NCBI RefSeq assembly: GCF_014137855.1
Contig: NZ_JACGWT010000003.1
Location: forward strand, 372,001-436,000
Length of the DNA: 64,000 nucleotides
Source: Microlunatus kandeliicorticis
Lineage (GTDB): Bacteria; Actinomycetota; Actinomycetes; Propionibacteriales; Propionibacteriaceae
Direction: 5' to 3'
Numbering within the stretch: the first letter of the stretch is position 1; every line of letters begins with the position of its first letter. The notes beneath the pieces are model-generated. The model saw only the letters and a program-made list of their open reading frames with translations. It was not told where the DNA came from and searched no databases. Made by a program: the position numbers and the translations under genes. Positions 61,008 through 64,000 of the stretch are shown piece by piece.

Positions 61008-61694
61008 TCAGCCCGCCGGGCGCAGCGAGCGCAGTGCGCCGGGCACCTCGGCCGGGCTGGCGCAGATCACCGCAGCACCCGCCGCCTCGAGCTCGCCCGG
61101 ATCACCGGCCCCCCATCCCGCGCCGACGCAGGGCAGGCCGTGCCGGCGGGCGCCGAGGACGTCCTGGGCGCGGTCGCCGACCAACACCGGATCGCGGGTG
61201 CCGGGGTGCGCCTCGAGGCCGAGCCGGACCACCTGCTCCTTGTGCCGGACCGCCCCGTCCAGGGTCGCGCCGTGCACGCTCGCGAACGCGTCGAACAGCC
61301 CGACCGCGGCGAGGATGTCGCGAGCGAACACCTCCGGCTTGCTCGTCGTCACCGCGAGCACGGCACCGGCGGCGCCGAGCGCAGCCAACAGGTCGGGGAT
61401 CCCCGCGAAGACGGTGACGTCGAACATCGCGCCCGCCCGGTAGTGCGTGCGGTAGGCGTCGACGGCCGCGTCGAGCCGGGCGGCCGGCACGCCGAGGACG
61501 TCGACGAAGCCCTCCTGCAGCGGTGGGCCGACCATCGCGTTCAGCTGCGTCGGAGTCGGAGCCGGCAGACCGAGCGCCGCGGCCGCGAACCGCACGCTGG
61601 CGTGGATCCCGGGGGCCGAGTCCACCAGCGTCCCGTCGAGGTCGAAGAGCACCATCCGCCCCGCCACCGAGAGCCCGGGAACTGGATCACCCAT
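61008..61694 (-). CDS. HAD-family phosphatase, phosphoglycolate-phosphatase-like
   Basis: A 228-residue HAD hydrolase. MVLFDLDGTLVDSAPGIHAS holds the nucleophile Asp, VLAVTTSKPEVFARDILAAV the second motif, KEQVVRLGLEAHPG the Lys, and PVLVGDRAQDVLGARRHGLP the acidic motif (the usual GD(T/S)xxD is GDRAQD). The four-helix cap of Gph/PpaX proteins is present. It should dephosphorylate a small phosphoester. The ATG overlaps the end of the monooxygenase gene by eight bases, so the two are coupled. Confidence 0.9.
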   Translation of the reverse strand: MGDPVPGLSVAGRMVLFDLDGTLVDSAPGIHASVRFAAAALGLPAPTPTQLNAMVGPPLQEGFVDVLGVPAARLDAAVDAYRTHYRAGAMFDVTVFAGIPDLLAALGAAGAVLAVTTSKPEVFARDILAAVGLFDAFASVHGATLDGAVRHKEQVVRLGLEAHPGTRDPVLVGDRAQDVLGARRHGLPCVGAGWGAGDPGELEAAGAAVICASPAEVPGALRSLRPAG

Positions 61695-61968
61695 CGAGCC
61701 CGCTGACCTCGTAGTCGCGGGCGATCCCGGCGGTCTCCCGACCCCAGACGCTGCCGGCGATCCGCTGTTGGTGGGCGCGGAACGCCGCGGCGTCGGCGAA
61801 CGTCTCCTCGACCCGCCAGACCCGCGGGTTGTCGGTCGGGTCGACGGCGAAGGCGAGGCAGCCGGGTTCGGCGCGGGTCAGGGCCACGTGCTCAGCGAGG
61901 AGCCGGCGGACGAGCGCCGTCTGGTGCTCGTCCGCACAGATCAGCCGGCCGGTGAGGTGGACGGTCAC
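61687..61968 (-). CDS. antibiotic biosynthesis monooxygenase (ABM)-domain protein
   Basis: A 93-residue dimeric alpha/beta-barrel protein: VTVHLTGRLICADEHQTALV, LAEHVALTRAEPGCLAFAVD and VEETFADAAAFRAHQQRIAG follow the ABM/YgiN pattern. Such proteins are cofactor-less quinol or heme-degrading monooxygenases. The GTG at 61968 has GAGGA six bases upstream. It starts 70 bases after the reverse transcriptase stop and overlaps the HAD gene, so the three could share a transcript. Confidence 0.85.
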   Translation of the reverse strand: MTVHLTGRLICADEHQTALVRRLLAEHVALTRAEPGCLAFAVDPTDNPRVWRVEETFADAAAFRAHQQRIAGSVWGRETAGIARDYEVSGLDG

Positions 61969-62038
61969 GCTCGATCCTCGCGCACCGGCGAATCCGTCAC
62001 GGCGCACGGGAGCAGCCCGCGAGCGGACGACAGCCTCC

Positions 62039-63445
62039 TCACCTCTCGGGCCAGACGATCGCCTCGTACTGCGCGCGCAGCCGCCGGCCCTGGACGGGGC
62101 TGACCGACTCCACCCAGGTGATTCGGCCGTGCAGGTGCTCGCGAAAGTGCGGGTGGCGCTCGCGGTTGGCCGCCTCCGGGCCGTGCCGGCGAGCGTCGTG
62201 GAGCACGGCCCGCAGCCGGTCCCGGTCCGAGCGGGCGATCCCGGGCCGCCGGTTGGTGACGATGCCGGTGACGGTCTGCCGCTCCCCGGTGCGCCGGACG
62301 CGGCTCTTGCCCGGGTGCACCACGAAGCCCTCCGCGACGATGATCGTGGACACCGTGGCCAGCAGCGCCGCCGGTCGCGCGACCGGACCGGAGAAGGTCA
62401 GGTCGTCGGCGTAGCGGCTGTAGACCAGACCGGCCGTCTCGGCGTACCGCTGGAGGCGGTGGTCGAGGCTGAAGCAGGCCAGGTTGGCCAGCGCCGGCGA
62501 GGTCGGTGACCCCTGCGGCAGGTGCCGGCTGCGGAGGGTCGCACGCAGCCGGTGGCGCTCGCTCGGGTCGCCACCCGCCGGCATCCCGCTCAGCACCCAG
62601 CCCGGGGTGGCGTGCGTCGACAGTCCGGTCAGGACCCGGACGACCGCTTCGGGGAGACCCATCGTCCGGTAGAGCCCGCCGACTCGGGCCGCGGTGATCG
62701 TGGAGAAGAACGACCGCAGGTCGAGCGCGACCACCGTCGGGGCGCCAACGTGCCGGGCCGCGTTGGTGATCGCGCTCCGCCCGCCGACGAAGCCGTGGGC
62801 CGCGGGGTGCACCGGCACCCAGGCCAGGATCCGGTCGAGGATCCGCCGCTGCACCGCCCGGAGCAGCGGTCCCGGCGCCTCGAGCAGCCGGGGCGCCGCG
62901 TGCGGACGGGACCGCCAGCGGTGCTCGAACGCCTGGTAGGGACCGGGCGGGCTGCGGCGCTGCAGCCTCGCCGTGTCCGCGAGCCAGTCGAGCTGGTCGA
63001 GCGGCACCTCGAGCAGCCTGGCCAGCGCGACGAGGTCCGGCAGGTCGGGCACCGGCCACCGCCGCCGTCCCATCCGGCCCGGTACCGGCGCCAGCACCCG
63101 GACGCGCAGCGGCTCGTGCTCCTGCCGCACGGCGTGGGCGATCTCGGTCAACGGCGTCGCCAGCAGCAGGAAGCGGGCGAGCTCGTCCGGCCGGTCGGTC
63201 GGTGGTTCGCGGTAGGCGGCGAGGACCGGCCCGACGACCCGTCCGGCCCACTCGCACGGACGGCCGAGGGTGCGGGTCACCGCCGCCTGCAGGGCGTCCG
63301 CAGTCCAGTCCTCGGCCGCGAGCAGGCCCCAGGCGATGCCCCGGGCCAGCCCGTCGTCGGGCGCGAGGGTCACGGGGACGCCCCGGGGACGGTGCGACTC
63401 CCGCCGGGTGCCGTCGTCGCCGTCACGGCGGGTGTGAACGGGCAT
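62039..63445 (-). CDS. retron-type reverse transcriptase
   Basis: A 468-residue protein (from the ATG at 63445). About 160 N-terminal residues of unknown fold precede the RT domain. Motifs in order: APRLLEAPGPLLRAVQRRIL, HPAAHGFVGGRSAITNAARH (retron NAxxH at 228-232), VVALDLRSFFSTI (motif A), LPQGSPTSPALANLACF, YSRYADDLTFSG (catalytic YADD at 345-348) and RQTVTGIVTNRR (retron VTG at 392-394). NAxxH and VTG separate retron RTs from group II intron or DGR enzymes. It resembles, from memory, the long myxobacterial RTs such as Mx162. A GTG at 63373 (444 residues) is an alternative start; neither has a strong ribosome binding site. The ncRNA candidate lies 13 bases upstream. Confidence 0.93.
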   Translation of the reverse strand: MPVHTRRDGDDGTRRESHRPRGVPVTLAPDDGLARGIAWGLLAAEDWTADALQAAVTRTLGRPCEWAGRVVGPVLAAYREPPTDRPDELARFLLLATPLTEIAHAVRQEHEPLRVRVLAPVPGRMGRRRWPVPDLPDLVALARLLEVPLDQLDWLADTARLQRRSPPGPYQAFEHRWRSRPHAAPRLLEAPGPLLRAVQRRILDRILAWVPVHPAAHGFVGGRSAITNAARHVGAPTVVALDLRSFFSTITAARVGGLYRTMGLPEAVVRVLTGLSTHATPGWVLSGMPAGGDPSERHRLRATLRSRHLPQGSPTSPALANLACFSLDHRLQRYAETAGLVYSRYADDLTFSGPVARPAALLATVSTIIVAEGFVVHPGKSRVRRTGERQTVTGIVTNRRPGIARSDRDRLRAVLHDARRHGPEAANRERHPHFREHLHGRITWVESVSPVQGRRLRAQYEAIVWPER

Positions 63446-63457
63446 CTGGTGCCGGAT

Positions 63458-63621
63458 GTGGTGGTGACGCCCGGCGACCTGTCGTGCCTCCGCGGGTGCG
63501 CTGCTGCGCGAAGCGCAGGGCGACACCCGCCGGCCTGCGGCAAGGTGACACTGCGTGCGCCGGAGGGAACCTCGGGCGTCGACCGCCGGAGCGGGCGAGA
63601 TCTCGCGGACGTCACCACCAC
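63458..63621 (-). ncRNA. candidate retron msr-msd RNA flanked by a1/a2 inverted repeats
   Basis: GTGGTGGTGACGTCCG (63621-63606) can pair with CGGGCGTCACCACCAC (63473-63458) over 16 bp with one G.U, enclosing 132 nt. Inside are CTCCGGCG-GTCGA-CGCCCGAG (63591-63571, seven pairs and one mismatch; msr-like) and a long hairpin 63530-63492 (outer GCGGGTG/CACCCGC, inner CTGCGC-TTC-GCGCAG; msd-like). The distal repeat ends 13 bases before the RT ATG. This is the retron order a1, msr, msd, a2, RT. The branching G was not identified with certainty. Confidence 0.65.
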
Positions 63622-63758
63622 CGAGCCATCGTCGCACCCTGCGTCCTCGGCCGAGCCGGACAGCAGGTTCGCCCAGCCACCTCGATCACGCGGCACCCCG
63701 CGCCGAGCGCGGAGGCCGCGCCGCTCGGCACGGCTGCCCGGGCCGGCGGCGGACGCGA

Positions 63759-64000
63759 TCAGGTCCAGTCGCCGTCGGCGGTCCCCAGCCGCCCCCGGCC
63801 GAGCGGCGTCACCGGGACGGCGGCCAGGCTGGTGATGCCGATGTCGAGGAGGGTGGCGCGGGAGAGGCCGACCGCCCCGAGGGTCTCCATCCCCTCGATC
63901 AGCGCGCAGAAGAACGCGCCGAGCGAGTCGGCGTCCGCGCTCTCGTCGATCTCCCCGGCCTGCTGGGCCTCGGCGATGCAGGCGGCGTAATGCGTCCGCA
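63759..64000 (-). CDS. TetR-family regulator, C-terminal part (cut by window end)
   Basis: Only the last 79 codons or so lie in the window: YAACIAEAQQAGEIDESADA, then SLGAFFCALIEGMETLGAVG and a Gly/Pro-rich tail ending LGTADGDWT. The pattern CIAEAQQAGEI...LGAFFCALIEGM is typical of the TetR_C ligand domain of TetR/AcrR proteins. The DNA-binding part is beyond the window. It is on the same strand as the retron RT, and its stop is 138 bases before the candidate ncRNA. Confidence 0.65.
   Translation of the reverse strand, partial: RTHYAACIAEAQQAGEIDESADADSLGAFFCALIEGMETLGAVGLSRATLLDIGITSLAAVPVTPLGRGRLGTADGDWT

Follow-up and report, generated by a model that had tools for sequence, protein, structure and literature searches.

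Near one end of the 64,000-nt stretch of Microlunatus kandeliicorticis DNA analysed here (the window, whose numbering is used throughout), a gene for a reverse transcriptase (RT) and, directly 5' of it, a structured RNA element lie on the same, complementary strand (Table 1). The RT open reading frame ends at 62039, and its in-frame ATG at 63445 is 12 nt past the a2 arm of the RNA; the longest ORF of the same frame, starting at 63637 (532 aa), would cross the RNA. Downstream of the RT, at 61008-62007, are genes for an ABM-domain protein and a HAD phosphatase, which look like housekeeping functions; the gene on the upstream side (63760-64000) reads by eye like a TetR-type regulator.

Table 1. 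The RT gene and the parts of the RNA element, in window coordinates
Feature	Position	Strand	Basis and remarks
Retron-type RT	62039..63445	-	start ATG 63445 or GTG 63373; models, motifs, tree
msr-msd RNA element (whole), putative	63456..63625	-	R1 116 bits, E 1.7e-19, window being a training row; R2 70.8 bits
a1 arm	63606..63621	-	pairs with 63458-63473; compensatory changes in relatives
a2 arm	63458..63473	-	16-nt inverted repeat with a1
CGA extending the a1 helix	63603..63605	-	pairs with UCG 63475-63477; 97.7% and 97.1% of cells paired (two alignments)
Predicted branching (priming) guanosine	63602	-	conserved G; priming predicted
Conserved msr hairpin CCCGAGG...CCTCCGG	63557..63579	-	helix 3 of the 17-row alignment
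msd stem-loop	63492..63530	-	helices 4 and 5; double changes in 11 of 13 pairs
Predicted first template base	63478	-	adjoins UCG of the a1/a2 helix
Possible -10 element GACGAT, degenerate	63628..63633	-	place equivalent to TAnnnT of relatives

The RT is recognizable by its motifs and by its kin. The NAARH (62750-62764), YADD (62402-62413) and VTG (62264-62272) motifs that an earlier note, made from the letters alone, had picked out are all located on the complementary strand. Pfam recognizes RVT_1 only, at residues 162-361, and the N-terminal stretch preceding it has no Pfam match; in 12 relatives whose match began late, 86-124 codons separate the first start after a2 from the RT core, and the N-terminal stretch therefore looks general. 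Among PADLOC models, which cover the RT only, the two best are RT_other (521.8 bits) and RT_outgroup (500.3 bits), with RT_XIII third (300.6 bits); all 59 family rows scanned match both RT_other and RT_outgroup, and RT_other is the best model in 8/8 further relatives. The RT of retron Ec86 is the best sequence match among solved structures (E 1.4e-30), and three NCBIfam retron models match at 135-155 bits, all below their curated cut-offs. The scores against other RT classes are low: 35.9 bits for the NCBIfam group II model (cut-off 300) and 39.5 bits for Drt2 (cut-off 390), the best 25 of 49 PADLOC matches include no DRT model, and neither DGR nor Abi models appear in the matches listed for PADLOC, Pfam and NCBIfam.

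In a tree of 37 RTs, drawn from this family and from RT_XIII, RT_III-A, RT_VII and group II enzymes, the 25 family rows occupy one side of a branch with support 99/97. Nearest to them is a group of five myxobacterial RTs (support 76/73) whose best-scoring model is RT_XIII. The window RT stands outside these five rows, and its scores are 522 bits for RT_other against 301 for RT_XIII; RT_XIII is the nearest group and the third-best model but a separate clade. Five RTs scoring best to RT_III-A or RT_VII models lie further out, and two RTs above the cut-off of the group II model (409 and 396 bits) are set apart. The tree program warned of long branches, the window's not being among them. The sets designated A3 and A5 are without L007, in which the RT is split over contig ends, and without L026 and L033, each with one TGA inside the RT match (the upstream DNA of these two is kept in the RNA alignment A2, below); A5 is also without L094, which has a stop codon. 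The earlier note would have given up its reading had the RT clustered with group II introns, DGRs or Abi systems: tree and scores separate it from the first of these, and for DGR and Abi RTs the comparison is one of model scores, with no such model among the matches listed.

Other retron-type RTs occur in the genus and family: L018 scores best to RT_III-A (471 bits), L020, L011 and L014 to RT_VII-A2 (186-236 bits), and L013 to RT-DUF3800_VII-A1 (211 bits). The myxobacterial genomes of L071 and L064 each hold one member of the present family together with three and two further RTs, respectively, that score best to RT_XIII.

The RNA element announces itself through its inverted repeat, which lies where the earlier note had placed it: two 16-nt arms, 94% Watson-Crick with one G.U, enclosing 132 nt. 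The note's rough guess that such a repeat would seldom arise by chance is borne out by shuffling. With mismatches barred, a single G.U allowed and the span set at 80-220 nt, the longest helix in the 300 nt 5' of the GTG at 63373 is 16 bp; none of 300 dinucleotide shuffles reaches this length (maximum 14, mean 9.2). The RNA of 63458-63621 folds more stably than its shuffles (z -4.9; 0/200 as low), and addition of flanking sequence (63440-63640) weakens the effect (z -2.5; 4/200 as low). Between the arms, where the note had described stem-loops, lie the conserved msr hairpin and msd stem-loop of Table 1. Rfam 15 recognizes two tRNAs only in the whole window at gathering threshold, and nothing in 63380-63700 up to E 1.

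Within the genus, the window element aligns with six of the eight other loci (74-82% identity over 156-192 nt) and, at E 0.01, not with L008 or L009. The alignment A2 brings together 17 elements: the window's, the eight from the genus and eight from the wider class. Of its 30 predicted pairs, 21 have changes on both sides, with 95.3% of cells paired; the covariation score is 0.495, as against 0.195 in shuffled alignments (0/500) and at most 0.134 when the rows are slid. Aligning the upstream regions of RT homologs, the very comparison that the earlier note had proposed as a check, thus reveals a conserved and covarying structure rather than the featureless DNA that would have told against it.

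Two covariance models carry the comparison further. R1 was built from the 17 A2 rows, window included. Of 20 genomes of the genus, nine give a match, each the source of a training row; the remaining 11 give none. The relatives of the RT number at least 579; of the best 80 of these (the named loci), 72 have an R1 match at E<=0.01 that is 5' of the RT and shares its strand, or 71 of 79 once L083, a duplicate of training row L029, is set aside, and five more of the 72 are >90% identical to a training row. At E<=1 (74 loci) the matches start 153-552 nt before the RT match. The eight named loci lacking such a match at E<=0.01 are L092 (E 0.012), L096 (E 0.57), L062 (E 2.6e-5, on the other strand), and L081, L116, L117, L124 and L125, in which R1 matches nothing, L081 being cut near a contig end. 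R1 also matches five loci outside its rows (G043, L031, L034, L035 and L036; 47-135 bits); seven loci of other RTs give no match up to E 1. When 81 matches, weak and misplaced ones included, are aligned to R1 (alignment A4), double changes appear in 29 of the 30 pairs and 95.0% of cells pair, figures that lean towards structure because the alignment is fitted to the model.

R2 was made from the 81 A4 matches, leaving out the window and its eight genus relatives; it is not fully independent of them, because it inherits the alignment and structure of its rows from R1, for which the window element was a training row. The sole R2 match in the window up to E 1 is the element, at 63456-63622 (70.8 bits, E 1.5e-9), and all eight genus relatives are matched as well. 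R2 also recovers four of the loci missed by R1: L116 (E 1.1e-4), L125 (0.006), L124 (0.034) and L117 (0.066). There is no R2 match in 12 loci with other kinds of RT, nor in L012 or L081, and neither model matches the five RT_XIII loci on which both were tried. In a sample of the order searched under stricter filters, the RNA is present in seven of 57 genomes; for 40 of these the RT protein was also used as query, and the seven with the RNA are the seven with an RT at E<=1e-40. The other 33 have neither RNA nor this RT, three of them giving weaker RT matches only.

Conservation also marks the base directly after the a1/a2 helix. It is G in 72 of the 72 lettered rows among the best 73 of the 81 A4 matches, which include the duplicate L083 and the opposite-strand L062 and of which L082 has no letter at this column; in A2 it is G in 16 of 17 rows, the exception, L009, having A followed by G. 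The extension of the helix just before it is CGA/UCG in the window and CAA/UUG in many relatives, and the base at which the template would start (window 63478) is G in 69 of 71 lettered rows. Known retrons prime from the G in TAGC, CAGA, CAGC, GAGC or ACGC (Simon 2019, PMC6868368), and the family's motif, (G/A)AG(C/G/A), resembles these contexts. A conserved G after the a1/a2 helix is what one expects of a branching guanosine; on the strength of that conservation and of the likeness in motif, priming is predicted at 63602 and template start at 63478. The single-stranded DNA that the earlier note had projected, 63530-63474, comes close to this template start together with the msd stem.

Upstream of the element, TAnnnT begins 6-15 nt from its 5' end in 57 of 70 loci, against 5/70 and 1/70 in two control stretches lying farther upstream, an excess that points to transcription from a1. 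(The 70 are the 17 A2 rows and 53 named loci, the latter being the 56 with R1 E<=1e-5 less L083, L055 and L056.) The motif is less regular in the genus, where 3 of 9 loci have it, and the window has only GACGAT at the expected place.

The RNA-RT pair occurs in isolates of Actinomycetota, Myxococcota and Pseudomonadota and in metagenome-assembled genomes (MAGs) labelled Acidobacteria and Planctomycetota. (The first contig scan, with a single RT protein as query, returned no relative.) Eight of the 20 genus genomes, the window's included, hold a full-length RT relative, and in a ninth it is split over contig ends. Nine genus loci, counting a decayed one, occupy six sites, two of which are common to more than one species; the decayed copy (L012/L134, in the congener G006: an RT remnant with two TGA codons; R1 18.3 bits, E 0.068) shares its chromosomal site with the intact copies L132 and L133. 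Six plasmid records contain a relative at E<=1e-40 (41-42% identity); these are plasmids or secondary replicons of Tsukamurella, Dietzia, Methylobacterium and, in three cases, Burkholderia. Phage records yield only four distant RTs, 26-32% identical. In a Solirubrobacterales MAG (L062:5751-5930, complementary strand) the RNA lies directly upstream of the RT on the opposite strand, an inverted msr-msd that R1 matches with 44 bits and R2, for which it is a training row, with 84.5 bits. Two labels call for caution: L056, recorded as Vibrio cholerae strain 35D, has its RNA (93% identical with that of L026) and its neighbours in common with L052 and L055, loci of Arthrobacter agilis; in the Acidobacteria MAG locus L049, the neighbours are those of the Arthrobacter loci L051 and L053. 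Because of these shared features, both records are probably mislabelled or contaminated.

What travels with the pair is, as far as the neighbours tell, nothing in particular. Within 6 kb, crude ORF calls find no gene common to the genus sites except the RT (in this analysis, which left out the short G004 contigs, the RT cluster itself held 7 of 9 loci). Within 3.5 kb on each side in the best 80 of at least 579 relatives, the RT cluster holds 77 loci, an ABC-transporter ATPase 13, one other cluster 4 and the remaining ones at most 3 each: no broad companion. A homologue of the ABM gene that follows the window RT is present in two of 20 genus genomes, of which the second, G005, has only a group II RT. 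Since no neighbour is shared between the genus sites or broadly among the relatives, the unit is taken to be RT plus RNA, with no linked effector; nor is there a fused one to be seen by Pfam, which recognizes RVT_1 only. Most retrons studied so far have a toxin-like partner gene next to them; that tripartite layout of RT, RNA and linked or fused effector is not what these loci display.

Other readings of the conserved stretch have to be weighed. That it might be protein-coding, as the 5' part of a longer RT gene (the 532-aa ORF), is suggested by the openness of the RT frame through the window element, by the absence of a stop between priming site and RT in 14 of 17 rows (a common circumstance at 70-80% G+C) and by the single frame common to 12 of 17 rows at the 3' end of the element. 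At the priming site, however, the frame is spread over three phases (10, 5 and 2 of 17), L004, L007 and L032 have stops between priming site and RT, and the helices have compensatory changes. On frames and stops we reject the coding interpretation and accord it next to no credence. Lying directly 5' of the RT, the element could be co-transcribed with it and might be a structured leader that regulates RT expression and never serves as a template. Against this stand the long a1/a2 closure followed by a conserved unpaired G, as in retrons, the promoter-like motif that 57 of 70 loci have at a1, and the retron kinship of the RT; in L062, moreover, the RNA cannot be a leader of the RT because it is on the strand opposite to it. 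A purely regulatory leader is accordingly very improbable.

Just as improbable is a system of the DRT kind, with the RNA a template for other products (a gene, a repeat or a homopolymer). An RT and a noncoding RNA lacking a linked effector are the layout of some DRT systems too, but the RT scores 522 bits with a retron-type model as against 39.5 bits with Drt2, far from its cut-off of 390, and arms and priming G are retron-like. Somewhat less remote, though still unlikely, is a retron that has lost its function in this strain: the window's element is without TAnnnT and a congener has the decayed copy already described, yet the RT is open and retains YADD, and in the alignment of the window to R1, of which it is a training row, no pair is marked as broken.

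An RNA element of conserved structure closed by a1/a2 inverted repeats, with a conserved G and linkage to an RT of retron kinship bearing YADD and VTG, is in all likelihood a retron, consisting of the RT and its msr-msd RNA. That is how the earlier note had read the locus, and the covariation, the linkage of R1 and R2 matches to the RT, the conserved G and the RT's clade and model scores uphold it. Such an element would work as follows. Transcription beginning at about a1 would yield a short RNA that the a1/a2 helix closes; the RT would bind the msr part of this RNA and start synthesis from the 2'-OH of G63602; the msd would be copied from 63478 to beyond 63530; and the product would be a branched RNA-DNA whose DNA part measures roughly 55-75 nt.

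The order of elements in retron Ec86 (Eco1) is a1-G-msr-msd-a2-RT, and Ec86 has a linked effector gene. The window locus has the same order with a different RNA, and the linked effector gene is absent. The myxobacterial retrons Mx162, Mx65, Sa163 and Ne144 are described as having an extended RT N-terminus and a priming G set in CAGC or GAGC (Simon 2019, PMC6868368); to go by that description, the window locus resembles them in both respects. Putative retrons in Actinobacteria are already in print (Simon 2019, PMC6868368, section 9), and PADLOC already covers the RT lineage. The RNA, which Rfam 15 does not match, and the absence of a linked effector may be new; a screen of titles and abstract openings, the main retron surveys lying outside it, recognized no published description of this RNA.

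What the retron does is a matter of kinship and of what surrounds it. Phage defence is the best guess by analogy with other retrons, and we would put it at about an even chance. With no linked effector gene, the likeliest modes of action are the complex on its own, the N-terminal stretch of the RT, or a partnership with an unlinked host protein. A more specific proposal, which we hold tentatively and with slightly less assurance than the defensive role, is that this is an effector-free retron lineage spread over several phyla, in which the msDNA complex acts alone or through the ~100-residue N-terminus of the RT. If that were true, the tripartite rule would not hold for all retrons. For a high-GC actinobacterial retron there is now a covariation-backed msr-msd, whose arms, priming base and template start are predicted and can be tested at the bench; and because the RNA-RT pair recurs across phyla with no recurrent companion gene, what a retron does when no effector is linked to it becomes a directly testable question.
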